Origin: Bacteroidota bacterium
GTDB taxonomy: Bacteria; Bacteroidota; Ignavibacteria; Ignavibacteriales; Ignavibacteriaceae
Direction: 5' to 3'
DNA: 39,410 nucleotides
NCBI GenBank assembly: GCA_021831685.1
Contig: JAKBMG010000199.1
Location: forward strand, 66,100-105,509
The position numbers and the translations under genes are program-made. Below, piece by piece: positions 2,194 through 32,065 of the stretch. The notes beneath the pieces are model-generated. The model was not told where the DNA came from, searched no databases, and saw only the letters and a list, made by a program, of their open reading frames with translations. The first letter of the stretch is position 1. Each line of letters begins with the position of its first letter.

Positions 2194-2204
2194 CTTCATC
2201 TCCG

Positions 2205-5200: not shown

Positions 5201-5321
5201 CATATGGATCGTTCCGGTACAGCTGAATTCTTGGGTCCGGCTGGCCAATGTCCATTTGTGCTAAGGTTATATTTAACCCCGTGCCTAATAAAAAAAGAAT
5301 AATTAAAATCTTCAGTTTCAT
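2205..5321 (-). CDS. Large T9SS-type exoprotein with acidic calcium-binding-like segment
   Basis: This 1038-residue protein has a clean signal peptide (MKLKILIILFLLGTGLNITLAQ). It contains no catalytic motif that I recognise. Residues ~315-410 are an acidic stretch rich in DxDxDG-like loops (DGIDNDQDGMIDERRDDN, then DLNGNGKWDAGE), resembling dockerin/EF-hand or thrombospondin type 3 calcium loops. A fibronectin-III-like region with WNSIAEQS and YTIYRSLD lies at ~500-630. The C-terminal ~90 residues run from NPYIAAATWE through KIYTMSGALVKTLY to GVYVFHVDAPG and GKFAVIK, a beta-sandwich that resembles T9SS sorting or FlgD-like tails but lacks the NPFNPST signature of other tails here. AGGAG lies about 8 nt before the ATG at 5321. 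The gene is 24 nt downstream of the TonB receptor and 5-11 nt upstream of the PorV-like gene. It may be a surface partner of the receptor. Confidence 0.85.
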   Translation of the reverse strand: MKLKILIILFLLGTGLNITLAQMDIGQPDPRIQLYRNDPYGNFSYRRQSIMVGNRINTLFYNDGEVGKWLYAPTIEWPAGSGHNYLDGQAILIGARVTTPTGMRIDPIISAYREEYSMDPITQVPWGLEPVPGYANPKSTNIAINIDPTSFPPTWPISLGLDPSWNGKWYGYFGKGVMNADFETFFVLDDSQDKKFTKTPYFFYPLANDSNRAGLGLRVEVRGFQWSHVLAEDIIFWHYDIVNLSDYTYDSTAFGFYADPGVGGANATEPGNSAYFNTALDIAYSWAPGGLGNPGNWKTGYMGYAYLESPGNPFDGIDNDQDGMIDERRDDNIDNNHNWVSFGDLNGNGKWDAGEPLNDDVGRDGLGPWDLGYTGPDEGEGDGLPTHGEPHFDETDKDESDQIGLTAVSIYVLADKGPLAGWPKNDGPMWQKMNNGFKDTLQQNVNISMVFASGPFPLGKGLRERFSLALVMGNDLNNLLFNKETVQQIYNANYNFSKPPYTPTVSSVAGDKRVFLYWNSIAEQSRDPYLGFENNDPKQGYKKSFEGYTIYRSLDPQFNDVKLITDSQGEPKYWKPIAQFDIADSISGPDPVGINGAHFWRGSNTGLQHSFVDTTVENGKTYYYAVCSYSKGDPNKGTTGLQPTECSKIIREDYAGNITFVDINCAVVTPNAPVAGYVPPQIVGDISKVTQGVGTGSISAQVLNPETVNDGAQYIIKFNSQGTFPNYRTSSYSVVRNYNGTADTLQSNVDATVFGPTIFSPPFDGMVFSFSNDTTVAINDSLTGWYVGKSNLNMSVVPDMTSPNLDFKWPTDYEMDFFDHNVDTTKQTKIPVDFTVTDISTGNPVSAEVLDNDHSKTLTLGDFIIFTQKIGTQTKYTWRVLYQPPQNPGLTPVFPQAGDKFRIYTLKPFENGDYFSFTTKSAAVNVSQANKDLSKISVVPNPYIAAATWEPRTLFATGRGDRMIDFINLPAKCTIKIYTMSGALVKTLYKDGSNLNSGGAITWNLVTDDGMDIAYGVYVFHVDAPGIGEYIGKFAVIK

Positions 5322-5345: not shown

Positions 5346-8075
5346 CTAAAATCCTACAGTAAAGCCAATGCGTACCTGTCTTGGCGCCGAAAAACTTGTG
5401 GGATCGTTTAAGTATTGTTGAATTGTATTTAAGGCGTAAAGCGTTCCTGCAAGATTTGTATATAAATCTATATTTGCCCGGCCGCTTGCTGAGTTTACAT
5501 TTACTTCATTCTTTATATCTAACAGATTGTACACAAGTAAAAAAGCATTCAAATTTATTCCGCCGACTTTGAAGTATTTCTCCGCTCTCATGTCTACATT
5601 ATATGTCGGCGGTTTTAATCCTCCGTTTTCAAACCTGATTCCTTCGGATACCCTTACGTCTTCTGTGTACGGAAATCCTGAACCATAATTAAAAATCAAT
5701 CCCACATTCCAATTGTTGGCCTGACCAAAATTGAATGATAAATTTAACGTAGAGCGCTGATCCCAATTTAACGGTACAAATGTTTTATTTGTTTCAATCG
5801 GTGGACTTGTTTGATTATTATAAAACACTGACATTGGATCGGAGGCATCGCCTTCGGCTATCTGGTAGGTGTAATCTAATTTAGCGCTAAAAAAGTCTCC
5901 AAACCTTTTATCCAGTGTAAGTATAAATCCTTTTACATTTCCGTAATCTCTATTAACAAATCTTGCATAATTAACACCCTGATATGTGTTGATAATTTCC
6001 ATGCCCAAAAGATTTCTGATGTCTCTGTAGTATACCGTAAAATCCAATGACAAGTCTGAGGCTAACCCCTGCTGAAGTCCTATCTCATACATTACTGTCT
6101 CTTGTGCCTTCAAGTCCGGGTTTCCGACTACCGATGACAGTGTTGTACTCGGAACAACTATTATATCCGGGTTTACATAAAGATTAGAGAAGCTCGGTAT
6201 TTGAAAGAAGTGTCCATAAGAAAAATGTATTATTCCTCTGTCGGTTATAGGAAAAGAAATTCCCAAGCGGGGACTTATCTGCATCTTTGGTGTGGCTTTT
6301 ATCATTTGTCCCGCATTCACAAAATTTGTATCTCGCATCGGGTTTCTTAAGTCGGCTAGATATTTTGAGTTTGCATTAAAATAATCAAACCTGACTCCAA
6401 AATTCAAAATCATTATATCATATTCTGCTTTATCCTGGATATAAGCCGAAAATGCCATAGGATACTTTGTATATTCCTCATTGTCTGTCGTCCCTAACTG
6501 CCTGTAGCCTAGTGTGAAGGCCGTGTCATTCGGCGTTAAATTTACCACATTGTTATCATGGTTATAAAGCTTATACCAATCAGCCTCTGCTCCTACGCCT
6601 ATCTTATGTATTCTCGAGACCTGTGCGTTTAACTGCCACTGCAATGTGCTCTGTATCGTGGTGCGTTTATAACGGCCAGTTTGCTGACCGCCTGATTGGA
6701 ATGTATAATTTGATATCGGTGCGCCCTGATATGGATCAACATAACGGCTGTCATAAGGATCTGCATAAACATAGCCTGTATAGTCATATCTGTTAACAGA
6801 AAATTTTAATGTCTGATAAACACTCTGCGAGGGAACATGAGATATCTGGAAACTTTGAATTAGATTGTTCATATAATTATTCATTATACCATCCGGTGTC
6901 CATGCCCAGGCCTGACTAAAATATTTATTCCAATCCTTATTCCAAAATGCACTGTATGTAAACTTTAAATCTGGCAGTGAGTAGGTCAGCTTTCCGTTAA
7001 ATGAATATCTTTCCGTAGGATTCATCGGAACAAATGATCCGTCGCCCGTATGAGTGTAGATATAAACAGGATTACCGTTAGGATCTAGTATAGCAAAACC
7101 ATTCGGATCTTTTAGTGCAAAAGGTGATTTATCCGAAACATTGTATACCCGCTTTCCGTACAAGTAACCGTTATCGTGATAATACCTGCCTGTCATAAAA
7201 AATGTAAGATGACTTAGTACCTTCGTCGGGCCGCTTAGGCTAAATTCATAATTCTTTGTTCTGAAGGATGTCAGTCTGCCTATGTTTGGGAAAATATTTG
7301 TATGGGTTGTTACGTAATCTCCCATATATGCCGAAAGAGAACCATGAAAGGTTTGCGATCCATCTTGTGTTACTATATTAACTATACCAGACATTGCCTG
7401 TCCATATTCAGCATTAAATGTTCCGCTGATAACTTCCATTTCTCGGATCGATGAGTTTTCTACTTGTAGAGGAAGTCCTCCGTCATAAGGATCCGTCACC
7501 GGTAATCCGTCAACCAAATATGATACTTCATCGGAACGGCCGCCTCTGAAATGTCCGCCCACAACTCCCGCTTGTAGATTTATTATCTGACCTACGCTTT
7601 CCACAGGCATCATGCTGATTTCACTGGCAGATACCGTTACCGAAGAGGAGGTAAGATCTTTTTGAACCAAAGGACGCTCAGCTGTAATTACTACTTCCTT
7701 TGCACTAACTGATTTTTGGTTAAGTTTTACATCAAGTGAAAATGTCAGATCTATCTTTATCGGAACTTTATGCACTACTACTTTTTCATAACCAACCGCG
7801 CTTACCATTACGGTATAGTCTCCCGGCGGTATATTGTTAATGTAATAATACCCGTTTACATCTGCGGCTGCACCCATATATGTGCCTTCTATTATTACAT
7901 TAGCACCTATCAACGCTTCGCCTGTCTGAGCGTCCGTTATTCTGCCGGATAACTTTCCGGTAGTGCCCGCATAAGACATGCCTGTTAGAAACAAAATTGA
8001 GATGAAAAACAGTTTCTGCATTTTTATCAGAAAGCGGTTTGCTTTTAATAATTTCCGATTATCGCATTTACACAT
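5346..8075 (-). CDS. TonB-dependent outer-membrane receptor with carboxypeptidase-regulatory-like domain
   Basis: TonB-dependent receptors import large substrates across the outer membrane using inner-membrane energy. After a signal peptide (core MQKLFFISILFLTGMSYA) comes a CarboxypepD_reg-like domain, residues ~40-125, with GRITDAQTGEALIGANV and DVNGYYYINNIPPGDYTV. It is followed by a plug domain with VSYLVDGLPVTDPYDGG and EVISGTFNAEYGQAMSGIVNI at ~180-230, and a long barrel ending in GFTVGF with a terminal Phe. The 909-residue length is normal for the family. The ATG at 8075 gives a basic N-terminal extension ahead of the hydrophobic core; an internal ATG at 8021 would give a shorter signal peptide but has no better ribosome-binding site, so the start is uncertain. 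It is first in a minus-strand run with the exoprotein, the PorV-like gene and the propeller gene. Substrate unknown; this is not a clear SusC because no SusD gene follows. Confidence 0.9.
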   Translation of the reverse strand: MCKCDNRKLLKANRFLIKMQKLFFISILFLTGMSYAGTTGKLSGRITDAQTGEALIGANVIIEGTYMGAAADVNGYYYINNIPPGDYTVMVSAVGYEKVVVHKVPIKIDLTFSLDVKLNQKSVSAKEVVITAERPLVQKDLTSSSVTVSASEISMMPVESVGQIINLQAGVVGGHFRGGRSDEVSYLVDGLPVTDPYDGGLPLQVENSSIREMEVISGTFNAEYGQAMSGIVNIVTQDGSQTFHGSLSAYMGDYVTTHTNIFPNIGRLTSFRTKNYEFSLSGPTKVLSHLTFFMTGRYYHDNGYLYGKRVYNVSDKSPFALKDPNGFAILDPNGNPVYIYTHTGDGSFVPMNPTERYSFNGKLTYSLPDLKFTYSAFWNKDWNKYFSQAWAWTPDGIMNNYMNNLIQSFQISHVPSQSVYQTLKFSVNRYDYTGYVYADPYDSRYVDPYQGAPISNYTFQSGGQQTGRYKRTTIQSTLQWQLNAQVSRIHKIGVGAEADWYKLYNHDNNVVNLTPNDTAFTLGYRQLGTTDNEEYTKYPMAFSAYIQDKAEYDIMILNFGVRFDYFNANSKYLADLRNPMRDTNFVNAGQMIKATPKMQISPRLGISFPITDRGIIHFSYGHFFQIPSFSNLYVNPDIIVVPSTTLSSVVGNPDLKAQETVMYEIGLQQGLASDLSLDFTVYYRDIRNLLGMEIINTYQGVNYARFVNRDYGNVKGFILTLDKRFGDFFSAKLDYTYQIAEGDASDPMSVFYNNQTSPPIETNKTFVPLNWDQRSTLNLSFNFGQANNWNVGLIFNYGSGFPYTEDVRVSEGIRFENGGLKPPTYNVDMRAEKYFKVGGINLNAFLLVYNLLDIKNEVNVNSASGRANIDLYTNLAGTLYALNTIQQYLNDPTSFSAPRQVRIGFTVGF

Positions 8076-8178: not shown

Positions 8179-10752
8179 TTACTTAAGCAGCATCATTTTC
8201 TTTACGTTCTGAAAGGAACCTGATTCTATTTTGTAGAAATACACTCCGCTTGATAATTTCGATGCATCGAAATTAACCGTGTATGTTCCCTGTGATTGAA
8301 ATTGATTTATCAATGTTGCTACTTCTCGGCCCAAAATATCATATATCTTTAATGATACCATTCCGGGTTTCATTATAGAATATTTGATCTGTGTCGAGGG
8401 ATTGAACGGATTTGGATAATTTTGTTCTAACTGGTAACTATTAACAACAGAATTACCTTTGTCTTTTACACCCGTTACATACCACTTATTACCTATCCAG
8501 GTATATGACCAGAGAGCTACGTTACTCCATGAATTACCTTGAGCAATTGGAGAATAATCTAATTGTCCGTCTCTTGAAGTTGCGCCGGGGCTAACACTAT
8601 TGATTTCGAAATCTATAGGAATCCTCATTCCTTCTTGTGGAGCAAATAAATTATCAGATCTTGTAGTGCCGTTACTTCCCTTATGAGCTAAATCTGTCCA
8701 CGGAATTTTTGCTTCAACATTATAGCCTGCAAGAGGATCGGGGAATCTTGCTGGATTCCAAGCGTAATCCGTACCGTAAGCTTCTAAAGTATCAACTCCC
8801 ATATTATCAATTCTTATATGATTTTGAGAAAATCTTAAATGATAATCTGGTTGAGCGCCTGCTTCTAAACCAGTATGGGATACTCCATGCCAATCATAGC
8901 ATCCGATAAAAAGATCAGGAGATGTATTTTCATATGAAAGACCAGTAGCATCCAAATTTGGATCGTAATATACGTTGCTTGCATTAACATGGAAGGCAAC
9001 ATATAAATAAGTCTGGTCTACTGCTATATATGCATCAGCAGAGCAAACCGTATCATTCGGAATTTTTGTATTTTGGACGACAGTACCGCTATGGTCGCTT
9101 GGATACATTCTAAAAGGAGTAACTCCAGTCCACTCGCCTAAATCAGCATCGGCAACAAAGTTTGCGGGAGCGCCCCAATGAATTACAGTAACGCCTTTTG
9201 CCATATTGGTTAAAGCTTGACTTGTAACGCCGGGGTTTCCTAAGATTCCAGCATCACTACGACAAACTACAGCATAATAATAGGAAACATTTTGATCTGA
9301 TCCGGGAGCCTTTAAGAGTGTTGTAGCAGATTGAATTCCGTGAACAATACCTGTAGCTGCAATTTCAACACCGGGAGCAGTAATATCCGTAATCGGATTT
9401 AAAGAATAATAAACATTATATGTTCCATTCGGTTGATCCGGTACATCGGTCCACACTACAGTATTTGAATTGTCTGTATTTGCAGTTGCAATAACTCCTG
9501 TTGGAGCTACCGGAGGAAGGACATTAATCACAGGATTGCCGGTCCAAACATTAGTAATATAAGCAACCTTGCCTAAAATTCTGCTTGGAGAAGCACTATC
9601 GTTTTGTGTCATAATACCAAAAGTACCAATTTGTGAAGGATCAAAAATTTGACCAGAAGGGTTCGTGGATTCATCTAACTTAATATCTCTAAGAGCAAAA
9701 GAATATTGATGCCAATTTGTATCGGCTGCGGTATTAAATATCAATCCTACCTTTCCGCCACCACTCTCAAATTGAAGCCTTAAGGAATCGTTAACGGCAT
9801 TTGTTTTCATCAAAAATTTTAAGCTGTCTGTCTGCCAGCCGCCTGATAAGTTAAAGGGAGAAGAAAGCGACCATCCGAAACCACACCACCCGTTCCCATA
9901 ATCATCACCCATTGTCCACATAAGTGCATTTGAATTTGGAACAGGACCTGCTCCATTGGCAACAGTAATTGCAGAACCACCCCATGTCCATGGTGTCCCT
10001 AATTGAGAAGGTGAAGAAATTCCGTTAAAAATCACAAAAGGTATAGGTTTATTTCCGCTTCTTTGGAATTCATCAAGTTTAACTTCAATCGAATCAGCCG
10101 GTAGATTTACACTCGCAGTATAACCGGAAACAACAAAAGCCATGTCCCAGCCAACTAGTTTATCGAGATTTAATTTATGATCATTGTAAGTAAATCCTCC
10201 CCACGAAGAAGGAGCAATAACGAAACCAGAATCACCCGGAGTTATCGTTCCATCAGAAGTAATCATTTTCAAAGGAACTTTAATTTGAACCCATCCGTTT
10301 GTAACCTTGGTTAAGATGGAATCATTTTCATAAATATAAGTTTCCATTGGATCACCAGGAGCATCTCGATCCTCAATTTGAATTCTGAATACCATATATT
10401 GAGGCTGAGAAGGGCCCATAGTAACTTTCAGATTTAAGCTCACAGTATCACTCGAGCTCCAATCCATAGTTGTCCCGGTAGGAGTTCTCCACATTATTTG
10501 CGAATAACTTCCCCAAGGATGAAAGGCGCCTATGGATGTTCTCACGTCCAAAGAAGCCATACTACCAGTTACCTTATCGGTAGAATCTTCCTTTACCGTA
10601 ATATAACTAGGAGCACCTTCAACATTTCCAGTCCACACATAGTTTGTGTCTTTGGAAATATTATCAAAGCTTTCTATTGTAGTCACTTGCGCATAAGATT
10701 TAAATGACCACAAAAAGAGAACTAGAAGAGCAGGTAAAATAACTTTTTTCAT
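8179..10752 (-). CDS. T9SS-exported multi-domain carbohydrate-binding protein (CBM9-like, fibronectin III)
   Basis: The 857-residue protein opens with a signal peptide (MKKVILPALLVLFLWSFKSYAQ). Two beta-sandwich segments follow at ~22-235 and ~240-410. Both have the look of CBM11/CBM4_9-type modules (ESFDN, DSVSLNLKV and a repeated SLKFLMKT-like strand). A fibronectin-III-like domain is at ~415-520. A CBM9/DOMON-like module at ~545-770 shows DADLGEWTGVTPF, YIAVDQTYLYVAFHV, YNVEAKIPWTDL and GQLDYS. The tail has NQ-like EQNYPNPFNPSTQIKYS, KIYDILGREV and SSGVYFYKIESG, a standard T9SS type A sorting domain. No glycosidase catalytic pair is visible, so it is probably a surface glycan-binding protein. 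AGGAAG precedes the ATG by 7-8 nt. It follows the symporter gene by 70 nt on the same strand and is closed by a strong terminator, so the two may be one transcript. Confidence 0.85.
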   Translation of the reverse strand: MKKVILPALLVLFLWSFKSYAQVTTIESFDNISKDTNYVWTGNVEGAPSYITVKEDSTDKVTGSMASLDVRTSIGAFHPWGSYSQIMWRTPTGTTMDWSSSDTVSLNLKVTMGPSQPQYMVFRIQIEDRDAPGDPMETYIYENDSILTKVTNGWVQIKVPLKMITSDGTITPGDSGFVIAPSSWGGFTYNDHKLNLDKLVGWDMAFVVSGYTASVNLPADSIEVKLDEFQRSGNKPIPFVIFNGISSPSQLGTPWTWGGSAITVANGAGPVPNSNALMWTMGDDYGNGWCGFGWSLSSPFNLSGGWQTDSLKFLMKTNAVNDSLRLQFESGGGKVGLIFNTAADTNWHQYSFALRDIKLDESTNPSGQIFDPSQIGTFGIMTQNDSASPSRILGKVAYITNVWTGNPVINVLPPVAPTGVIATANTDNSNTVVWTDVPDQPNGTYNVYYSLNPITDITAPGVEIAATGIVHGIQSATTLLKAPGSDQNVSYYYAVVCRSDAGILGNPGVTSQALTNMAKGVTVIHWGAPANFVADADLGEWTGVTPFRMYPSDHSGTVVQNTKIPNDTVCSADAYIAVDQTYLYVAFHVNASNVYYDPNLDATGLSYENTSPDLFIGCYDWHGVSHTGLEAGAQPDYHLRFSQNHIRIDNMGVDTLEAYGTDYAWNPARFPDPLAGYNVEAKIPWTDLAHKGSNGTTRSDNLFAPQEGMRIPIDFEINSVSPGATSRDGQLDYSPIAQGNSWSNVALWSYTWIGNKWYVTGVKDKGNSVVNSYQLEQNYPNPFNPSTQIKYSIMKPGMVSLKIYDILGREVATLINQFQSQGTYTVNFDASKLSSGVYFYKIESGSFQNVKKMMLLK

Positions 10753-10822: not shown

Positions 10823-12451
10823 TTAGTACCATATACTCCATAAACCAAGAATGATTAGAAGAATAAATGCAGACATAAGAAGGTTAGTCTTATATCCACT
10901 TACAGTATTTATATTTTTTATACCAAAACCAATTTCGTGAATAGTATCAGGAAAGAGATACTGAACCTTTACAACTCTCGACTCAGATTTTTCCTGTGTA
11001 CTCAAGCTAACAATAACCATTAATGACACACTAAGAACAAAAAGGAATATCGCGAAGTACAAAAAATTTATATTAACTATTGAAAGAAGCAGCGGATTGC
11101 TTATTTGATTAGCATTAACTGACATTTCTAACAACAAACGTAAAAAGCCTATACCTTCACCGATTATCAGCATCCAAATGGCTCCCTTGGCATTTGCTTT
11201 TTTCATTAATAATCCGACAATAAATAAAGCTGCAATGGGAGGACTAAGAAAAGATTGTACACCTTGGAGAAATAAATAAACCTGGTTATTAATTAACTTA
11301 ACAAGAGGAATACACAAAATTGTCATTACAACAATTGCGGTAGTAAAAAGCCTACCAACTAAAACCAATTCCCTATCGGTTGCATCGCTATGTTTTGTTT
11401 TATAAAAATCATTTGTGAGCAGCATTGAAGTTGTATTAAAGACACTACTAAGAGAAGACATTATTGCAGCAAGAATTCCGGATACGACAAATCCTTTAAT
11501 ACCAATAGGAAGGAGGTTACTTGCCAATAGGACGGGATATGCTTCGTCTCCGGTTATTTCGGGATATAATGCAACAGCAATAAGTCCCGGTAAGACCAGA
11601 ATGAAGATCGGTAGAATTTTTAGAAATGCTGCCAAAAGAGAACCGCGGCGGGCATGCTCAATGTTTTTTGCACTTAATATTTTTTGGATAAAATATTGGT
11701 CGGTGCACCAATACCAAAATGCTATAATCGGAGCTCCAAAAATAATCCCTACCCATGGAAAATCAGGATCTGAGGCAGGTTTAAACATATTAAAAAATTC
11801 AGGAGGTAATTTTTGTCTTAAGCCTTCAAAACCTCCTACTTCTTTTAGGCCGAATAATGTTAGAGTTACTGCTCCGCCGATTAAAATTAAAGCCTGGAAA
11901 ACATGAGTTTTCATTATAGCGGTAGCGCCGCCGATCACGCTGTAAATACCCGTTATTAGGACTATTATAATAGTTGAAGTATATAGATTCAGCCCAAAAA
12001 TTTTATAAAATAAAATCCCCCCGGCAAAGAGTGTAACTGTTATTTTTGTAAGGATATACATTGCAATTGAAAAGACCGCAAAGAATTTTCTTGTTGAACG
12101 GTCAAATCGTTTTTCTAAAAACTCAGGTACAGTTTTAACACCGGATTTAATGTAAATAGGAGCAAGTATCCAGCCTAAAATTATCAGAACGAAGATAGCC
12201 ATCAGTTCAAAGTGCGCGGCAGCTAAACCTCTTGAAGCGCCTGCGCCGGCTAGACCGATAAAATGTTCGCTGGAAATGTTAGTGGCAAAAATTGATAGGC
12301 CGACAGTAATCCATCCCATATTCCTGCCTGCAAGAAAATAATCATCAAAATTTTTTTCTTTCTTGCCGGAATAATAAAAGCCAAGACTTAATGTAATAAT
12401 TAAGTAGGCAAAGAGAATTAAGCTGTCTAAAAAAGTAAAATTTGAAACCAA
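10823..12451 (-). CDS. Sodium/solute symporter (SSS/SGLT family)
   Basis: SSS-family proteins couple sodium uptake to import of sugars, amino acids or other small solutes across the inner membrane. The 542-residue sequence shows the family's N-terminal helix (FLDSLILFAYLIITLSLGFYYS) and the KNFDDYFLAGRNMGWITVGLSIFATNISSEHFIGLAG block. Further hallmarks are VPEFLEKRFDR, the VIGGATAIMKTHVFQALI segment and AAIMSSLSSVFNTTSMLLTND, within about 13-14 hydrophobic segments. This combination is typical of SGLT-like sugar transporters. No ATG is in frame near the N-terminus. A TTG at 12451 with GGATGAAG just upstream gives the expected N-terminus. It is divergent from the GH2 gene and lies behind a sigma-54-like element at 12478-12494. 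Context suggests import of the sugar released by the nearby glycosidases; the substrate is inference. Confidence 0.92.
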   Translation of the reverse strand: MVSNFTFLDSLILFAYLIITLSLGFYYSGKKEKNFDDYFLAGRNMGWITVGLSIFATNISSEHFIGLAGAGASRGLAAAHFELMAIFVLIILGWILAPIYIKSGVKTVPEFLEKRFDRSTRKFFAVFSIAMYILTKITVTLFAGGILFYKIFGLNLYTSTIIIVLITGIYSVIGGATAIMKTHVFQALILIGGAVTLTLFGLKEVGGFEGLRQKLPPEFFNMFKPASDPDFPWVGIIFGAPIIAFWYWCTDQYFIQKILSAKNIEHARRGSLLAAFLKILPIFILVLPGLIAVALYPEITGDEAYPVLLASNLLPIGIKGFVVSGILAAIMSSLSSVFNTTSMLLTNDFYKTKHSDATDRELVLVGRLFTTAIVVMTILCIPLVKLINNQVYLFLQGVQSFLSPPIAALFIVGLLMKKANAKGAIWMLIIGEGIGFLRLLLEMSVNANQISNPLLLSIVNINFLYFAIFLFVLSVSLMVIVSLSTQEKSESRVVKVQYLFPDTIHEIGFGIKNINTVSGYKTNLLMSAFILLIILGLWSIWY

Positions 12452-12477
12452 ACTTCATCCATTTTTTTACTACACGT

Positions 12478-12494
12478 GTCACAAAAAGTGCCAA
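12478..12494 (-). promoter_or_regulatory. Sigma-54-like promoter for the symporter gene
   Basis: On the minus strand the element reads TTGGCAC-TTTTT-GTGAC. The -24 half matches the consensus TGGCAC exactly and the 5-nt spacing is right. The -12 half keeps TG but has A in place of C. It would place transcription start near 12467, just ahead of the TTG start codon at 12451. Not confirmed experimentally. Confidence 0.5.
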
Positions 12495-12573
12495 GATGAT
12501 AATTTACTCATTTCGTATTTTTTTTGATTTTTTTGATATACTATAATCCCAGACAGCCAAATTGATTTATTAA

Positions 12574-12596
12574 ATTGATAAAGCAGACTTATCAAA
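12574..12596 (-). promoter_or_regulatory. Dyad operator-like site 1
   Basis: On the minus strand this is TTTGATAA-GTCTGC-TTTATCAAT, a near-perfect inverted repeat of (T)TTGATAA half-sites. It is the most symmetric of three related sites in this spacer and fits a dimeric DNA-binding protein. Confidence 0.5.
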
Positions 12597-12663
12597 CCAA
12601 TAAAAGAGATTTGGATAGCCGGCTTTAAGATATTTGAGATAAAAGATATTTTTACTTTATTAG

Positions 12664-12686
12664 TTTGATAAGTGCAGTTTATTGTT
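12664..12686 (+). promoter_or_regulatory. Dyad operator-like site 2
   Basis: On the plus strand this reads TTTGATAA-GTGCAG-TTTATTGTT. It shares the left half-site, the 6-nt spacer length and TTTAT with site 1. It is centred about 90 bp upstream of the plus-strand sigma-54-like element. Confidence 0.5.
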
Positions 12687-12687
12687 T

Positions 12688-12709
12688 TAATAAAATACTT
12701 TTTATCAAA
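12688..12709 (-). promoter_or_regulatory. Dyad operator-like site 3
   Basis: On the minus strand this reads TTTGATAA-AAAGTA-TTTTATTA. It is the weakest of the three, keeping the TTTGATAA half and an AT-rich second half. It lies directly beside site 2 with opposite orientation. Confidence 0.35.
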
Positions 12710-12764
12710 TTGCTAATATTCTTCGAATTCTTTGACTTTCTGTAATTTCACTTAGAATATTCGA

Positions 12765-12780
12765 TGGCACAATTTCTGTC
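12765..12780 (+). promoter_or_regulatory. Sigma-54-like promoter for the GH2-GH30 genes
   Basis: The sequence TGGCAC-AATTT-CTGTC has a perfect -24 half and correct spacing, with TG kept but C replaced by T in the -12 half. It would give a leader of about 65 nt before the GH2 ATG at 12855. Its partner on the opposite strand at 12478-12494 shows the same -24 match. Confidence 0.5.
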
Positions 12781-12854
12781 ATTTAAACTTTTAACCAAAT
12801 AATAGAAAATGAATTCATGCATAGCGCTAAAATTAAATTAGCCGGAGAATTATT

Positions 12855-15185
12855 ATGAAAAATATAGTTACTATCAACAACACATTATTTCTTATTTTAA
12901 TAATTTTTGCCTTAATGGATTTTACTTCGGCTCAGACAGCATCACTCAAGGCAACTTTCTCCTTACATAATGAAGGAAATATAATTGTTCCATATCAAAA
13001 TGGAATGCCGGTACCGACTTTCGAAAGACAAGACAGACAAATTATAGATTTAGACGGGACCTGGAAAAAACAACGATTTACAGCCGAGCATAATATTTCA
13101 TTAGCAGCAAGAGACTCTGCCGGTTACGCTAATTTATTAACAGAGGCTCAGAATCGATTTTCACCTATTTATAACGATAGCAGTTGGCAAGCAAAGAATA
13201 TTCCCTCCGTAGAAAACACAATGAATCCTGCTCCCAGCGCTCCCGAATTTTATCAAGACGGAGTTTGGTACCGTCGAACCTTTACCGTACCGGACAGCCT
13301 AAAAGGACAATTTTTCAAACTTATGTTTTATGCTGTTAATTACGTAGCTGATGTATGGATTAACGGGCATTATCTCGGTTATCATGAAGGCGGATATACT
13401 TCATTTGCTTTCGATGTTTCAAAATATCTTAATTATAATTCATCAAATTTAATTGCGGTAAGAGTTGATAATCCTGCATGGGGAACAAGAAATGATATTG
13501 TACCATATTATAATTGCGATTGGTTTAATTACACAGGAATAATTCATGATGTTTACCTTGAAGTTTCAAATCCAATTTCAGTAATTAGAACAGAAGTAAT
13601 ACCTTTAGATACTGCCGGGAATATTCAAACCACAGTCACACTATTAAACAAATGTGGTTATTCCTCAAATGCAAATATTCATATTGATATCTATCATGCA
13701 AACATTGATTCTACAAACATTCAATCTGAAACAGCATCTTCTTTAATCGGGGCTTCTGCACAGGTAACAGGAAGCGTTGATAATGCCATTACGATGGACA
13801 ATGACTCTGCAGGTGTTTGGAGAACTCAGCTAACGGTAAACGATCCTTTATTATGGTCTCCTAAATATCCTAATTTATATATTATGAAGGTAACAGTTTC
13901 AGACAGCGGTAAAGTTATCGATCAATACTGCACTCAATTCGGAATTCGTACAATAGCAACAAGTGGGACAAAGGTTTTACTTAACGGCAAGCCAGTATTT
14001 TTCACCGGCGTTGCCCGACATGAAGATCATCCGATTTATGGAAGAGCAATTCCTGACAGCGTCATATATAAAGACTTAAAAGTTATAAAAGGTTTAAATG
14101 CTAACATGATAAGAACAGGTCATTACCCTAATGCTCCTTTTACATATACACTTGCTGATAGAATGGGTTTTGCAATTATGGAAGAAATTCCCGTCTGGTG
14201 GTTTGATGATCCCGCGGCTTGGGTGATACAGAATAATACAAGACATATTCCTCAACAAATGTTCAGAGAAATGGTTTTCCGGGATTACAATCGCCCCTCT
14301 ATATTATTCTGGAGTACCTGTAACGAATGTTTAGACGTTACTAACAGAGCGGAATATATCCAAACGATTCAATCAGATATAAAAAATAATTATTATGACG
14401 GCAGGTTAGTTACACAATCTGCGGCAGCAGATAGACCTGGTCCACAAGATCCCTCACAAGATATTTGTGATGTTGCGGGATGGACTATGTACTTCGGAAT
14501 TTTTTATGGCAGTTCATACAATACCGATACACAAACTTTCTTAGATACTGCGAATACAGACCATCCAAACAAACCGATAATGGATACTGAGTTTGGTTAT
14601 TGGTCTACACAATCAGGCTCTACCGAACTACAACAGGCACAAGTATTTCTATTAACATTTAAGGCATTTCAACAAAACGCCGCTGTTAATGCTAACGGAA
14701 CATATAACCCTAATGGATATTTAGTTGGAACGATGTGGTGGTGTGCCTTTGATTGGTACACTGCGCAAACAGGACTTCAAACTATGGGGATCTACTATTT
14801 GGATAGGACTACAATTAAAAAAGTAGGACCAATCCTTCAAAGCGCATATAAACCATATTTTCAATTCGGAGGAACGATTACAGCAATTAAGGGACCTTCG
14901 GCGAACGAATTAGCACCAACAAATTATGAACTCAATCAGAATTACCCGAACCCGTTTAATCCAAGCACGACAATTTCTTTTTCTTTGAAAAAAAGCTCCA
15001 ACGTTACATTGAAAATTTATGATATACTTGGGAATGAAATTATGACATTACTGAATCACCAACTATATTCGCCTGGGGCTCATGAAGTAAAAGCAAACAT
15101 GGGCAGATTTTCTTCAGGAGTATATTTTTATAGATTAGTATCCGATAATTTCACCTCCGTAAGAAAAATGATTTTGCTTAAATGA
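12855..15185 (+). CDS. Secreted GH2-family glycosidase with T9SS tail
   Basis: GH2 enzymes are retaining exo-glycosidases (beta-galactosidase, beta-glucuronidase, beta-mannosidase and others). The order is signal peptide (1-27), jelly-roll sugar-binding domain (~65-235, with DGVWYRRTFTVPD, ADVWINGHYLGYHEGGYTSF, LIAVRVDNP), immunoglobulin-like domain (~240-365) and TIM barrel (~370-660). The acid/base Glu is E491 in WSTCNECL, where the usual NEP is NEC, and the nucleophile is E579 in MDTEFGYW. A T9SS sorting tail (ELNQNYPNPFNPSTTISFS, KIYDILGNEI, FSSGVYFYRLVSDNF) ends the 776 residues. GGAG precedes the ATG by about 9 nt. The gene is followed after 51 nt by the GH30 gene and preceded by a sigma-54-like promoter. 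The exact sugar specificity cannot be read from the motifs. Confidence 0.9.
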   Translation: MKNIVTINNTLFLILIIFALMDFTSAQTASLKATFSLHNEGNIIVPYQNGMPVPTFERQDRQIIDLDGTWKKQRFTAEHNISLAARDSAGYANLLTEAQNRFSPIYNDSSWQAKNIPSVENTMNPAPSAPEFYQDGVWYRRTFTVPDSLKGQFFKLMFYAVNYVADVWINGHYLGYHEGGYTSFAFDVSKYLNYNSSNLIAVRVDNPAWGTRNDIVPYYNCDWFNYTGIIHDVYLEVSNPISVIRTEVIPLDTAGNIQTTVTLLNKCGYSSNANIHIDIYHANIDSTNIQSETASSLIGASAQVTGSVDNAITMDNDSAGVWRTQLTVNDPLLWSPKYPNLYIMKVTVSDSGKVIDQYCTQFGIRTIATSGTKVLLNGKPVFFTGVARHEDHPIYGRAIPDSVIYKDLKVIKGLNANMIRTGHYPNAPFTYTLADRMGFAIMEEIPVWWFDDPAAWVIQNNTRHIPQQMFREMVFRDYNRPSILFWSTCNECLDVTNRAEYIQTIQSDIKNNYYDGRLVTQSAAADRPGPQDPSQDICDVAGWTMYFGIFYGSSYNTDTQTFLDTANTDHPNKPIMDTEFGYWSTQSGSTELQQAQVFLLTFKAFQQNAAVNANGTYNPNGYLVGTMWWCAFDWYTAQTGLQTMGIYYLDRTTIKKVGPILQSAYKPYFQFGGTITAIKGPSANELAPTNYELNQNYPNPFNPSTTISFSLKKSSNVTLKIYDILGNEIMTLLNHQLYSPGAHEVKANMGRFSSGVYFYRLVSDNFTSVRKMILLK

Positions 15186-15236: not shown

Positions 15237-16724
15237 ATGCATTCAACGTATAGACAACTTACACGACATTTAAAGTTAATATTGACATTTATTCTTTTTT
15301 CATTTTGTATTAGCATCTCTGCGAAGGGCGGGAGCGAAAAACCGGAACACAGGAATTCCCGTGCAAAGAAAATCAGAATAGCGGATGTTTATATTACCGC
15401 AAAAGGGACGACTGAAAGGATTACCAAAAAGGACTCAATCATATTTGAACCTCTTGAACAGCCTTTAGAACACGACCCAACAATTATCCTAGACAGAAGC
15501 AAGACATTTCAAACCATTGTAGGAATTGGCGGCGCACTTACAGACGCATCTGCCGAAACCTTTTACAAATTACCTGCTGATAAACAGGAGGAAATTCTGA
15601 CTGCTTTATTTGATAAAGATAAAGGTGACGGATTTTCTCTTTGCAGAACCAATATAAATAGCTGTGATTTTTCGAGTTCAAGTTACGCTTATGATGAAGT
15701 TGCGGGGGATACAAGCCTAAAACACTTTACGATTGAGCATGACTTAAGATACAAAATACCATTTATTAAAGCCGCGTTTAAAAAATCAGGAAATGAAATT
15801 AAACTTTTTGCATCGCCATGGAGCCCACCCGCCTGGATGAAAACAAATAACAATATGCTTGAAGGCGGAAAACTTAAAAATCAATATGACCAAACATGGG
15901 CAAATTATCTAGCTCTATTTGCAAAAGAGTATGGAAAAGCGGGGATACCTGTTTGGGGAATGACAGTTCAAAATGAACCGATGGCAGTTCAGCCCTGGGA
16001 ATCATGTATTTATACCGCCGCAGAGGAAAGGGATTTTGTTAAAAATTTCCTAGGGCCGACATTACAAATATCCGGTTTATCAAACTTAAAGTTGATCATT
16101 TGGGATCATAACCGGGGAATAATGTATCAACGCGCTGAAACAGTTTACGATGATCCGCAAGCAGCAAAGTATGTTTGGGGTACAGGCTTTCATTGGTACG
16201 TCGGAGATCATTTTGATAATGTAAGATTAGTTCATGATGCATTCCCCTCAAAACATCTTCTGTTTACGGAAGGCACAGAATCAACTTTTTTTGCAGATAG
16301 CTTACATGAATGGAAATGGGGAGAAATATTTGGAAGGTCGATAATTATGGATTTAAACAATTGGGCAGAAGGCTGGACTGCATGGAATGTAATTCTTGAT
16401 GAAAATGGAGGCCCCAATCATGTAGGAAACTACTGCATGGCGCCGATTATATGCAACACAAAAACCGGTGAATTGACATACATGAATTCGTTTTATTACC
16501 TAGGACATTTTTCAAAATTTATTCGACCCGGCGCACGGAGAATTATCTGCTCTTCAAACTCCGATGACCTTTTGGCAACTGCTTTCCAAAATAGAGATGG
16601 AAAGATAGCTGTAGTTGTTCTTAACACAACCGACAAAGGAATTGATTTTAGGACGTGGATTGAGGGAAGCGCAGTTAAAACACTTAGTCCTGCGCACTCT
16701 ATAATAACAATGGTATTACATTAA
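15237..16724 (+). CDS. GH30-family glycoside hydrolase
   Basis: GH30 contains retaining glucosylceramidases, beta-1,6-glucanases, beta-xylosidases and related enzymes. The protein (495 aa) has a signal peptide (to about residue 31). It then has the hallmark QTIVGIGGALTDASAETF, SLCRTNINSCDFS, KLFASPWSPPAWMKTN and WGMTVQNEPM with acid/base E247. HWYVGDHF, LLFTEGTES with nucleophile E345, and WTAWNVILDENGGPNHVGNYC follow. This pattern is closest to the glucosylceramidase-like GH30 branch. AAGGAGGAG lies just ahead of the ATG. Unlike its operon neighbour it has no T9SS tail and ends at ITMVLH, so it probably stays in the periplasm or is released by another route. Co-transcription with GH2 is likely. 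Confidence 0.92.
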   Translation: MHSTYRQLTRHLKLILTFILFSFCISISAKGGSEKPEHRNSRAKKIRIADVYITAKGTTERITKKDSIIFEPLEQPLEHDPTIILDRSKTFQTIVGIGGALTDASAETFYKLPADKQEEILTALFDKDKGDGFSLCRTNINSCDFSSSSYAYDEVAGDTSLKHFTIEHDLRYKIPFIKAAFKKSGNEIKLFASPWSPPAWMKTNNNMLEGGKLKNQYDQTWANYLALFAKEYGKAGIPVWGMTVQNEPMAVQPWESCIYTAAEERDFVKNFLGPTLQISGLSNLKLIIWDHNRGIMYQRAETVYDDPQAAKYVWGTGFHWYVGDHFDNVRLVHDAFPSKHLLFTEGTESTFFADSLHEWKWGEIFGRSIIMDLNNWAEGWTAWNVILDENGGPNHVGNYCMAPIICNTKTGELTYMNSFYYLGHFSKFIRPGARRIICSSNSDDLLATAFQNRDGKIAVVVLNTTDKGIDFRTWIEGSAVKTLSPAHSIITMVLH

Positions 16725-16977: not shown

Positions 16978-18435
16978 TTATTTCAGTCCAAGTTCTTTAG
17001 CCATTCTATAATAATTAGACGGAGCAAGTCCAAGTTTTCTAGCAGCATCAGTATCGGAATCCGAATGTTGACGAACATAAGTTAAATATTTTTCTCTAAT
17101 CATTCTTTCCATTTGAGAAAGAGGCAGAATATTATCTTCAAATACAGCTTCAATGCCGCTTAACGGACCACCGCTTTTGTTATTATAAAAAGCACCGAGA
17201 GAGAGCTTTGCCAGTTCTGCTCTTATTTCTATTTCCTCGCTAAAGAGTAATCGTTGAACGACATTTTTTAATTCCCTTACATTTCCAGGCCAGGTATAAT
17301 TTACGAACACTTCGAGAGCATCCGGCTTTAGAGTCGGAGCTTCCCTTCCCATTTTATTGCTGAATTGCAGAATAAAATATTCAAGTAAAACCGGGATATC
17401 CCCCTTTCTAAACTTAAGTTCAGGAACTTCAATAAAGATTACATTAAGGCGGTAATATAAATCCTCGCGAAATCTTTTTGCCTTAACTTCTTCTTCGATA
17501 TTCTTATTAGTTGCGGCAATAATTCTAATATTAACTTTGATTTTTTCAGTTCGCCCAATTTTTTCCAGTTCTCCTTCTTGAATTACCCGAAGCAATTTTA
17601 CCTGAGCAGAAAGGGGTAACTCCGTTATCTCATCAAGAAAAACCGTACCGTTATGGGCAATTTCAAATAATCCTGATTTCTTTTTATCGGCTCCTGTAAA
17701 TGCTCCTTTTTCATAGCCGAACAATTCGCTTTCGATAAGATCATGCGGGAGGCTGCCGCAGTTTATCGGAACAAAATTTTCAAATTTTCTTTCGCTGTTG
17801 TAATGGATATTGTAGGCAACCAATTCCTTTCCGGTACCGGAAGCACCGCTTATTAAAATATTAACATCACTGCGGGCATACTTTTTAATCTCATCTTTGA
17901 GTTTTTTAATTGTTGGGGATTCGCCTATGATTATTTTTTGAAGTAGAAGATCTTCGATATTCTTTATCAACTTTTGATTTGATTTTAATCTTTCCTTTTC
18001 GAGCCTGCATTTTTCATAGGCATTAAAGATGCTGAGAACAAAATCAGTAGGCTGATAGATATAGTCTTCAATATCCCCGGGGTATTTGGTACAATACCAG
18101 AAAGCTCCTGCTCTCATGAGCTTATTGGCAAAATCAAAGTCACTAATATTTATGGTCATCTTAGTAATTACAATAATTTGGATAGAAGGATCTATCTCTT
18201 TAATTTTTTGGATTAACTCTTCGCCCATAACCCCTCCGGCAAGGTGGAAGTCCATAACAACAACATCGAAGGCGGATTTATTTTTTCTAATCAATTCGAG
18301 AGCCGCATTACCATCCGAAACGATATTTGATACATTTATTTTATCGCGAAATGGTTTTACCGTATTCATTACTCTGATTACATCATACTCTTCATCTTCA
18401 ATTAGCAAAACTTGAATAACATTATTTATAAACAT
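16978..18435 (-). CDS. Sigma-54-dependent response regulator (NtrC type)
   Basis: This is a three-domain activator of sigma-54 RNA polymerase. The receiver domain (1-~125) has the acidic pair E13/D14, phosphoacceptor D62 in [11 protein letters not shown] and a TKY lysine. The AAA+ domain (~165-395) shows Walker A GASGTGKE (197-204), the sigma-54-contacting GAFTGA loop (244-249), Walker B VFLDEI and the [20 protein letters not shown] and WPGNVREL segments. A Fis-type helix-turn-helix at the end has [21 protein letters not shown]. All key residues are present, so it should be a functional activator. GGGA precedes the ATG by 6-7 nt. It starts 20 nt after the histidine kinase gene and is the last gene of a binding protein, kinase, regulator operon. 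It is the obvious candidate to act at the sites at 12574-12709. Confidence 0.95.
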
Positions 18436-18455: not shown

Positions 18456-19934
18456 TTAAGGATTAATAACTATAGTAAATTCACAGCCACAATCAGGGAG
18501 ATTTTGGGCATCAATATGCCAACCACACCTTTTTGTAATCTCATAAGCTATATAACAACCATACCCAGTGTTTTGGATATCGTTTTTTTTCGTAGAAATA
18601 TTTTCTTCGAAAATTCTTTTTATTCCATACTCATTTGTTTTAAGAAGTTCGCTTTCGATTCCTTTTCCGTTATCGCTAATTTTAATAGTTGAAATTTTAG
18701 ACTTTTGATCATACCCGGTTTTGATATTAATCAAAATATCCGGTATCCCGGCATGATCAATGCTATTTTGTATCAGCGGTTCAATTATTTCCCAGATAAC
18801 AAATTCATTAACGTTAATTTGGGGAATATTTTTATCAAGCTGAAGTTGTATATTATAAATACTAGTCTTTCTTGAAGTCCTAAGGAAAATATGATTGACA
18901 ATAAAGCTAATAACTTCATTTAAATCTGTCTTGAAGATAGGATTTCGAATAGTCTGAACCGGAGGTTCATACCATTTCATATCGTAAATTATTCTTGAAA
19001 TAAAATTAGCATACTTAGTAACCTTAAATTTTATTTCATTTATGTTCTCCGCTGAAAGCAGATTTAGATCACCTTTTATAAAGCCCATAACTTTTTCAGC
19101 TTTATGGTGAGTATGATAAATTCTTTTTGTAAAGGCTAATTCTTTCTCATAAGTGATTTGCTTTTTAATATTAACTTCATGCTCGACAAAAAGTAATTTC
19201 TGAGCCTCATCCCTTTCACGCAAAGTATAAGAAGAAACAAAATACATTGCAAGAAGACCAAGCGAAATAAACGAAAGATAGATTAAAGAAGTTTCGTCAT
19301 AGTTTGAAATAATCTGGCTTGTAAGGAAAGAAAAGTTCGGTGTGTTTTTAACATAAACAGCACCTACATATTCTCCTTTCAAAATAAAAGGAACAAAAGT
19401 GTTAAAAGTTACTTTATTAGTAACAATGCTTTTTATCTGTTCGGTGGTTTTTAATTGGTACTGGATTCCCTCATATAGTTTTATCACGTCAGAATGTGAA
19501 TCTTCCGAATCTGGCGCAACGTAAGAATTATTATTCAAGAATGAATAAAGATTTTTCCCGTCGTCGATCGCTAAAAGATTTTTCCCCTGTTGAACGATTA
19601 CACAAATATCCTGAATATTGTTTTGAAGCACCGGTTGTGTTAAAATAATATTGAATGATTTAATAATTCTTCTTGTATCCGCATCTCTAACTGGTTCCTT
19701 TGGGTCAATTGATTCGAGCTGGAGTTCAAGGGAAGTAGTAGTCAAGTTAGCAATTTTTTCCGCGGAATCTTTTTGATACCAATCCTGGGTGCTTAAAAAG
19801 AAATTTCTAATGGAGGCTTTATTAATAAATGAGACCAAAAATTGGAATGAGAAGAGCACGATAAAAATTATCGTTATATGTTTAAACTCAAAGTGATACT
19901 CTTTGAATTTTTCAAGAATTTTCTTTTTAGACAT
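18456..19934 (-). CDS. Membrane sensor histidine kinase, cognate of the sigma-54 regulator
   Basis: The 492-residue protein has a first membrane helix at ~20-37 (ITIIFIVLFSFQFLVSFI), a ~175-residue external sensor domain, a second helix at ~215-235 and a coiled-coil helical region. The C-terminal ATPase domain has an N-box around N390 (IIEPLIQNSIDHAG), G1 box DNGKG (421-425) and G2 box TGYGCYIAYE. The dimerisation helix lacks a textbook HE-N/D-P motif. The region KRIYHTHHKAEKVMGFIKGDL contains several histidines that could be the phosphoacceptor. The external domain I do not recognise beyond a possible CACHE-like or extended sensor fold. It follows the binding-protein gene by 20 nt and precedes the regulator by 20 nt, so the kinase probably reads sugar occupancy of the binding protein. 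Confidence 0.88.
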   Translation of the reverse strand: MSKKKILEKFKEYHFEFKHITIIFIVLFSFQFLVSFINKASIRNFFLSTQDWYQKDSAEKIANLTTTSLELQLESIDPKEPVRDADTRRIIKSFNIILTQPVLQNNIQDICVIVQQGKNLLAIDDGKNLYSFLNNNSYVAPDSEDSHSDVIKLYEGIQYQLKTTEQIKSIVTNKVTFNTFVPFILKGEYVGAVYVKNTPNFSFLTSQIISNYDETSLIYLSFISLGLLAMYFVSSYTLRERDEAQKLLFVEHEVNIKKQITYEKELAFTKRIYHTHHKAEKVMGFIKGDLNLLSAENINEIKFKVTKYANFISRIIYDMKWYEPPVQTIRNPIFKTDLNEVISFIVNHIFLRTSRKTSIYNIQLQLDKNIPQINVNEFVIWEIIEPLIQNSIDHAGIPDILINIKTGYDQKSKISTIKISDNGKGIESELLKTNEYGIKRIFEENISTKKNDIQNTGYGCYIAYEITKRCGWHIDAQNLPDCGCEFTIVINP

Positions 19935-19954: not shown

Positions 19955-21268
19955 TTAATTAAGCAAAAAATTTCCTGAATTTATTTTTTTTGTTGCCTCA
20001 TTAAGGGCATCAGAAACGGAAATTTGCTTTTTTATTGCCTCATGCAGATAGAAGGAAATAACGTCAGAAATGCCGGTGTAGCTTTGCAAAAATGGCCTGT
20101 GGACTCCCTGTTTTAATAAATTTTTGAAGAAATATAAACTTTTATGTTTGCTCAGAAAAGCCGAGTCATTATAAACCAAATTATTTACCGGAAGAAAACC
20201 TCCTTTCTCATAAAGTAACTTCTGGGCTTCTTCACTGGTAACGAAATTTAGAAATTTAACAGATTCGGGAATATTATTTGAGTATTTCGAAATCATTAAA
20301 TTCCATCCGCCAAAAATTGAGACAGCTTTCCCGTCTTTAAAGTGGGGTGTTGGCGCCCTAAAAATATTCTTAAATAACTTATTATATTTTTTTTCTTGTT
20401 TATACCCAGTATAAAATGCAGGCCAACCTCTTAAAAAGACTCCGTTATTTTTTAGAAAGTAATTATAACTTGGATCTTCCTTAAATCCAGTAACATTTGC
20501 AGGAGATAATTTATATTTATTCACAAGGTCGACAAGCAACTGTAATGCTTTGCGTGCCTCAGGCGTATTGAGCTGAACTTTCCCGTTTTCCATAAAAGAT
20601 TTACCCTGGCCTTGCATCAACTCTTCGAATATACAAATCAGCCCCTCATAGTCATCGCCTTGAAATATGAAATAGGGATTTTTATCTTTCATTTTTTCGC
20701 CAAGAGCGATAAAATCTTCCCAAGTAATTGAATGATTTAACTTTTGAATTATGGATTTGTAATCCGGCAATTGTTGAATTAAATCTTTCCTATAATACAT
20801 AAGCGCAATATCTATATAAAGCGGCAGGGTGATAATTTGCCCCCCATAGGTAGAAGTTTCCATCGCATAGTCAAGTAAATTACTTTTTTGCTGTTTAGAA
20901 ATGAATTTATCCAACGGAATTCCCCATCTTGCAAAGCGAGGTACCCAGATTTGATCAACAGCAAAAATATCGATCCTATCACTTTTACTTCTTAAATAAC
21001 GGGCAAGAAGTTCCTTCCTTTCGTTAGTACTGAACTTTTCGAAGGGAAGATTTATTCCGATAACCTCTATTTGCCCTTTATACCTTTCATTAAACAAGTT
21101 AATTAGCGCCTGATTAGCCGGCGATATATAATCGGCATAATAAATTTTTTTTACGCTTGTAATTGAATTATCTGCTGAACCATAGGGGGGGAAAATATAG
21201 CTAACCAACACGAACGTTGTAACTAAAAACGCACTTAAGGCTACGTAAAATATTTTTTCAAATTTCAC
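19955..21268 (-). CDS. Membrane-anchored extracellular sugar-binding protein (ABC-type family 1), apparently a sensor
   Basis: The sequence matches the family 1 extracellular solute-binding fold. Matching segments are IDIFAVDQIWVPRFARWG, LPLYIDIALMYYRKDLIQ, TWEDFIALGEKMKD, LNTPEARKALQLLVDLVNKY, GGWNLMISKYSNN, and VKFLNFVTSEEAQKLLYEKGGFLPV. Length (437 aa) is normal for maltose/oligosaccharide-type binders. The N-terminus has a long hydrophobic segment (residues ~7-29) without a lipobox Cys or an obvious cleavage site, so it may stay tethered in the inner membrane. The start codon is GTG at 21268. No ABC permease or ATPase gene lies beside it; instead it heads an operon with a sensor kinase and a sigma-54 regulator. 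This argues for sensing rather than uptake, although a distant permease cannot be excluded. Confidence 0.88.
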   Translation of the reverse strand: MKFEKIFYVALSAFLVTTFVLVSYIFPPYGSADNSITSVKKIYYADYISPANQALINLFNERYKGQIEVIGINLPFEKFSTNERKELLARYLRSKSDRIDIFAVDQIWVPRFARWGIPLDKFISKQQKSNLLDYAMETSTYGGQIITLPLYIDIALMYYRKDLIQQLPDYKSIIQKLNHSITWEDFIALGEKMKDKNPYFIFQGDDYEGLICIFEELMQGQGKSFMENGKVQLNTPEARKALQLLVDLVNKYKLSPANVTGFKEDPSYNYFLKNNGVFLRGWPAFYTGYKQEKKYNKLFKNIFRAPTPHFKDGKAVSIFGGWNLMISKYSNNIPESVKFLNFVTSEEAQKLLYEKGGFLPVNNLVYNDSAFLSKHKSLYFFKNLLKQGVHRPFLQSYTGISDVISFYLHEAIKKQISVSDALNEATKKINSGNFLLN

Positions 21269-21362
21269 TTTCTGCTTTCAGGTTTACCATATATATAACA
21301 CTTAATAAAAATAATTCCAATCTAAAAAAGCATCTGTTTTAAAAGTTCTTTTTTTCCAAATG

Positions 21363-32059: not shown

Positions 32060-32065
32060 GTTCAT

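Follow-up and report, generated by a model that had tools for sequence, protein, structure and literature searches.

Analysis of a 39,410-nt stretch of DNA from a Bacteroidota bacterium (hereafter the window) revealed that the spacer between its divergent symporter and GH2 genes is very probably a double sigma-54 control region, in which each operon would have its own −24/−12 promoter and its own enhancer module, driven by a system of a solute-binding protein (SBP), a histidine kinase (HK) and an NtrC-type response regulator (RR) (Table 1). This reading draws on features revealed by comparing sequences: conserved modules and elements, phase-locked distances between them, synteny of the SBP-HK-RR genes, co-occurrence of sites and system, and the presence of rpoN. 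An earlier note on this DNA had proposed at its core that the neighbouring NtrC-type regulator acts through sites in the spacer on two sigma-54-type promoters, and the co-occurrence of modules and elements in relatives supports that proposal.

Table 1 Features of the window and their coordinates.
Feature	Position	Strand	Remarks
PorV/PorQ-family protein	1159-2199	-	downstream of symporter
1038-aa protein	2205-5321	-	downstream of symporter
TonB-dependent outer-membrane protein	5346-8075	-	downstream of symporter
T9SS-tailed 857-aa protein	8179-10752	-	downstream of symporter
Sodium:solute symporter (SSF)	10823-12451	-	first gene of leftward operon; TTG start
Spacer			403 bp between SSF symporter (10823-12451, minus) and GH2 gene (12855-15185, plus)
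−24/−12 type element TGGCACTTTTTGTGAC	12478-12493	-	putative sigma-54 promoter, symporter operon
Module A	12567-12603		TTATTAAATTGATAA (12567-12581) + TTATCAAACCAATAA (12589-12603), 22 bp apart
Module B	12657-12693		TTATTAGTTTGATAA (12657-12671) + TTATTGTTTTAATAA (12679-12693), 22 bp apart
Third unit TTATCAAATTGCTAA	12702-12716		1 mismatch; 23 bp past last module B unit
−24/−12 type element TGGCACAATTTCTGTC	12765-12780	+	putative sigma-54 promoter, GH2-GH30 operon
GH2 family enzyme	12855-15185	+	T9SS tail
GH30 enzyme	15237-16724	+	best NCBIfam model endo-1,6-beta-glucanase, below cut-off
NtrC-type response regulator, proposed activator	16978-18435	-	receiver, AAA+ with GAFTGA, C-terminal helix-turn-helix by homology
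Sensor histidine kinase, proposed regulator partner	18456-19934	-	Pfam: HATPase_c only
Extracellular solute-binding protein (SBP_bac_1), proposed periplasmic sugar sensor	19955-21268	-

Genes of the window

The binding protein, kinase and NtrC-type regulator genes are adjacent. The GAFTGA that the earlier note had read in the regulator is indeed in its translation, with a sigma-54 activator domain (PF00158, E 1.7e-70) and a receiver domain (PF00072, E 1.5e-10, over the cut-off). Its putative Fis-type helix-turn-helix gave no Pfam match at 0.001; at the C-terminus, the alignment to the solved chain 5m7n_A (nitrogen assimilation regulatory protein) reaches residue 483 of 485, and those to the NorR and NtrX models reach 485 and 484. 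The kinase is 100% identical in G011 and in a record named Bacteroidetes bacterium BP9.bin49, so that the window probably belongs to the lineage of the loci compared below; the kinase has no Pfam HisKA match, and a motif common to its relatives, RIYHTHHKAEK, may hold the phosphorylated histidine. The SBP-HK-RR operon lies directly after a phosphoglucomutase-type gene, and the junction at 21268-21363 has no module. A second glycan-degrading gene (27830-32065) encodes a 1411-aa alpha-amylase family protein with a T9SS tail, and no module was found beside it. Glycan use is suggested by the GH2 and GH30 genes together with those for transport, and the GH30 model makes beta-glucan our guess for the sugar.

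Putative promoter elements and tandem palindromes in the spacer

The two TGGCAC-N5-nTG elements described in the earlier note were confirmed, one toward each operon, with GG and TG at −24/−12 spacing in both. The sequence TGGCACNNNNNNTG has exactly three copies in the window, two of which are the spacer elements; with one mismatch allowed there are 15, which is the chance level. When the spacer was shuffled by dinucleotides 20,000 times, TGGYAY-N5-nTG arose on both strands in 2 cases. In relatives, the SSF gene is preceded by a matching element, such as TGGCACTTTTTGTGAG in L035 and L042.

The earlier note had further described three dyads of the type TTTGATAA-N6-TTTAT between the promoters. 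All three are present, two of them exact, at 12578-12596 (minus) and 12664-12682 (plus), and one with two mismatches, at 12691-12709 (minus); the frame itself was wrong, since with three mismatches it occurs 86 times in the window against 74 expected, a chance-level count, and the dyads are inner halves of a larger unit. A first idea of our own, TTGATAA-N7-TTATCAA, was also set aside: it had one perfect copy in the genome, and at two mismatches each strand gave 155 matches, compared with 90 when the pattern was reversed.

The frame that takes the place of both is a 15-bp palindrome, TTATYA-N3-TRATAA, in tandem copies 22–23 bp apart. Comparison of the regions that precede GH2 in 22 relatives brought out a recurring arrangement, a TTATTA-N3-TAATAA tandem followed by TGGYAY-N5-nTG. 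Read in the tandem frame, the spacer holds two modules with one mismatch each; counted from the end of the module, the GG of the facing element is 74 nt away for module A (symporter) and 72 nt away for module B (GH2). The earlier note had proposed a set of shared operator sites; in this spacer, each of the two promoters is instead paired with a separate module, set at a fixed distance. Both the window and G008 have a separate module per promoter, and a single module between both promoters was found only in G006, where one tandem module, L007 407-443, stands 74 nt from one divergent element and 71 nt from the other and would be a shared enhancer of natural origin.

Occurrence in shuffled and genomic sequence

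We compared the module with shuffled, reversed and genomic sequence. Not one module with at most one mismatch appeared in any of the 20,000 dinucleotide-shuffled spacers, whereas the real spacer has two. Throughout the 4.5-Mb genome, the N7 tandem (22-bp spacing) with at most one mismatch was found at three places, two of them within the spacer; at up to three mismatches there were six places, against one for the reversed control. The third strong module of the genome, L094 10789-10825 (G000:C143), lies 95 nt before GGGCATAATATTTGACC, upstream of MFS and ROK-family genes. Other places were not counted as targets: C56:1958 adjoins a GH3 gene without a proper element, and C174:10403 and C209:1462 have two or three mismatches. 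The exact tandem has 74 occurrences, spread over 35 of the 59 genomes searched, and its reverse occurs in none of the 59. The pattern was chosen after the first set of loci had been seen, from some of these 59 genomes, and related loci are non-independent; therefore, the independent set described below carries more weight.

That the matches are merely chance in an AT-rich spacer has a negligible probability in our estimate. The chance level of the original dyad frame would agree with it, but the tandem module is missing from every shuffle, its reversed pattern is absent from the 59 genomes and from the 64 independent loci, and it is conserved in relatives.

Conservation in relatives

The GH2 gene has matches in 22 relatives, at 52% identity or more. 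In 19 of the 22 the symporter adjoins GH2, and the regulator lies within the fetched stretch in 15, being absent from that stretch in seven, one of which is a 3.8-kb contig. Gene order is mostly with all genes on one strand, and among the loci compared only this genome, G008 and G006 have the symporter and GH2 divergent. Upstream of GH2, a −24/−12 type element is present in 19/22 relatives and a module pair (two mismatches or fewer) in 17/22; L043 has a single unit there and L046 a weak pair, and neither pair nor element was found within 420 bp upstream of GH2 in L047, L048 and L055. L047 and L048 have a module before SSF. Across the order, dyads and −24/−12 elements co-occur upstream of GH2 and symporter orthologues, which the earlier note had named as the thing to look for, and a lack of dyad or −24/−12 conservation in orthologous spacers was not seen. 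Furthermore, the same layout of module and element is present at HK/RR paralogue loci without GH2, and a second system of this genome, at C33, has a module before its symporter.

Distances between module and element

A first set of 43 loci (the window, L007, L035-L055 and L094-L113) contained 73 modules in 40 loci, and GG[CT]A[CT]-N5-nTG was found at 45–110 nt from 66 of the 73, against a background expectation of about 2. Modules without the element occur one each in L048, L098 (contig end), L103, L104, L108, L112 and L113. When all spaced dinucleotide pairs were counted with no element presupposed, GG-N9-TG came first, at 106 of 113 modules, compared with 17.1 in mononucleotide shuffles.

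First-set distances within 55–100 nt (n = 67; two at 50 and 106 nt are left out) fall at 60–64 (19), 69–75 (40) and 92–95 nt (8), with none between. Tested for a period of 10.5, these distances give a Rayleigh R of 0.69, and the main clusters are a helical turn apart; the loci are related, which makes the Rayleigh p-value too small, and the gaps between the distance clusters are plain.

We assembled an independent set by a scan with a kinase alignment, which gave 80 named loci, 64 of them without overlap to the earlier ones; among the names are Ignavibacteria, Melioribacter, Stygiobacter, Calditrichota and KSB1, and relatives of the HK are present in records under the names Melioribacter roseus and Stygiobacter electus. 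These 64 loci held 40 modules, in 29 loci, against 0 for the reversed control, and 35 of the 64 had no module. The element was present at 29 of the 40 modules and absent at 11. Most distances (26/31) were again 60–64 or 69–76 nt, the others being 51, 53, 78, 80 and 81 nt.

Predicted targets of the elements

Elements of the first set are directed toward the symporter (32), GH2 (18), an MFS transporter (9) and, in a few loci, GH3 or GH125; the GH2 count leaves out three genes labelled GH2 by BLAST matches to the T9SS tail only. Modules on the SBP side face a gene divergent from SBP; this is often an MFS gene with ROK after it, and ROK was found in 7 of 11 MFS loci searched. MFS is the divergent gene in L035, L041, L042, L099, L100 and L101 of the first set and in L143, L144, L148, L152, L156 and L157 of the independent set; GH3 is so in L040 (Pfam) and L111 (by similarity to L040), and GH125 in L044 (Pfam), L043 being alike by eye.

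SBP-side modules, with elements starting with G or A, had suggested autoregulation of the sensor operon. A check of direction revealed that these elements point away from SBP to the divergent gene, and for that reason autoregulation is not claimed; at loci with an SBP-side module there was no sign of it except in L148, which alone also has an element toward SBP, at 81 nt. This genome has its MFS and ROK genes, with their module, apart on C143, which is probably why the SBP operon of the window has no adjoining module.

The −12 base and RpoN

The C at −12 is the defining base of classical sigma-54 promoters, and in the window it is replaced by A (symporter) and T (GH2). The earlier note had counted this deviation against its own reading. 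It does not weaken the case locally, as C follows TG in only 18 of 67 first-set elements (A 31, T 16, G 2) and in 6 of 31 independent ones (T 13, A 7, G 5). C is not conserved across the regulon, and the element is conserved in its absence; therefore, the doubt about −12 concerns the regulon as a whole and is not a local defect. The G-to-G distance of GG-N9-TG is identical to that of GG-N10-GC, and at the modules GG-N10-GC was found 36 times (9.2 in shuffles), GG-N10-GA 52 times (15.6) and GG-N10-GT 44 times (17.3).

A different polymerase form might read GG-N9-TG, with the regulator acting on that form; the primary sigma of Bacteroidota, for instance, has a TAnnTTTG −7 box. The −12 C is missing in 49/67 elements and TAnnTTTG lies within 5/67, which would favour such a polymerase, but 62/67 elements, including both in the window, are without TAnnTTTG, GG and TG at sigma-54 spacing are the dominant signal when nothing is presupposed (106/113), and the regulator carries GAFTGA, the loop that contacts RpoN. 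We consider this alternative very unlikely, and infer that the elements are RpoN promoters. An rpoN gene is present in this genome (G000:C91:30142-30615) and in 58 of the 59 genomes, and the RpoN of eight relatives, when read, had the ARRTVAKYRE box.

More tentatively, and with somewhat less than even confidence, we suggest that short-range sigma-54 enhancers at phase-locked distances may be the means by which this SBP-HK-NtrC family controls loci for glycan harvest (symporter, GH2, MFS-ROK, GH3) across the lineage, with an RpoN that reads a relaxed −12 (TG without C). If the relaxed −12 holds, promoters of this kind would tend to escape standard sigma-54 matrices.

Which protein binds the palindromes

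Across genomes, the exact tandem follows the HK: it is present in 33 of 40 genomes with HK and in 2 of 19 without (Fisher p 1.5e-7). Seven genomes with HK have no exact site, and the two HK-less genomes with a site, G003 and G006, are each assembled in hundreds of contigs. Of the 74 exact sites, 59 have an HK relative or a GH2 ortholog no more than 8 kb away. By class of recognition helix, modules were found at 46/66 loci with NY[YHF]RM against 7/23 with other classes, with relatedness not removed and with 17 regulators lacking a recognisable helix, one of them with a module, left out.

At two paralogous loci with the helix NFSRL, L119 (downstream of RR) and L121 (about 11120-11224), ATATCA-type tandem dyads lie 61–62 nt from a TGGCAY element, a hint that the site may change along with the recognition helix. 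The ATATCA-variant pattern was found in 0/59 genomes, missing those of L119 and L121 as well, because the search pattern was too strict. L122-L124 and L126-L138 have other sites or sites that did not resolve.

These observations bear on an alternative in which the tandem palindromes are the sites of an unlinked regulator, whether repressor or activator, and SBP-HK-RR acts elsewhere. It would accommodate the other 15 of the 74 exact sites, which have no HK relative or GH2 ortholog within 8 kb, as well as the regulator's own operon, which, at loci with an SBP-side module, has no element toward it with one exception; moreover, the pairing of palindrome and regulator is one that we infer. Against it, the sites follow the HK/RR system across genomes, modules are commoner with the NY[YHF]RM class, and an RpoN-type element at a phase-locked distance is in keeping with an enhancer-binding protein. 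We regard an unlinked regulator as unlikely, and favour the window's own NtrC-type regulator as the protein that binds.

In the mechanism proposed with this regulator, the SBP would bind sugar in the periplasm, presumably of a beta-glucan type as the signal, and engage the kinase, a transfer of signal suggested by gene order. The kinase would phosphorylate the NtrC-type regulator, which would bind the tandem palindromes and, by looping, remodel the RpoN polymerase waiting at each promoter. The effect would be activation, not repression, with the symporter/outer-membrane operon and the GH2-GH30 operon induced together.

Discussion

In a bacterial group that is mostly uncultured, the analysis predicts a site, a promoter and a sensor through which glycan harvest would be regulated, and it may account for promoters skipped by a −12 GC matrix. 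Furthermore, the preferred enhancer distances, about one turn apart, offer natural material for the study of DNA looping across about 60–75 bp.

One close known system is that of the Bacteroides polysaccharide utilization loci with hybrid two-component regulators. The system of the window resembles these loci in having a sensor-regulator pair adjoining glycan-harvest genes, and differs from them in its NtrC-type regulator, RpoN-type promoters and separate SBP. A SusC/SusD pair was not found: a TonB-dependent receptor is present, and the window genes scanned gave no SusD match.

In the literature searched, we found no description of this SBP-HK-NtrC arrangement for glycan harvest. Passages of a sigma-54 regulon survey (PMC12316311) describe PTS-type sugar uptake operons under RpoN in Bacillota and Proteobacteria; its main text does not contain 'ignavibacteri'. 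In contrast to those operons, the predicted targets here are an SSF symporter, a TonB-type outer-membrane protein and T9SS proteins.

For arsenite oxidase of Rhizobium NT-26, passages of PMC6011840 describe AioXSR, a periplasmic binding protein, histidine kinase and transcriptional regulator that are co-encoded, the regulator binding upstream of the RpoN promoter TGGCACAACGATTGCA of the adjoining target operon. By analogy, the predicted three-part logic matches that of AioXSR as those passages present it: a gene trio of binding protein, kinase and NtrC-type regulator beside an RpoN-type target promoter, here read from sequence. Unlike AioXSR so described, the binding protein here is of the SBP_bac_1 family and the predicted targets serve glycan harvest; moreover, several operons are predicted as targets, their tandem module being set at fixed distances.
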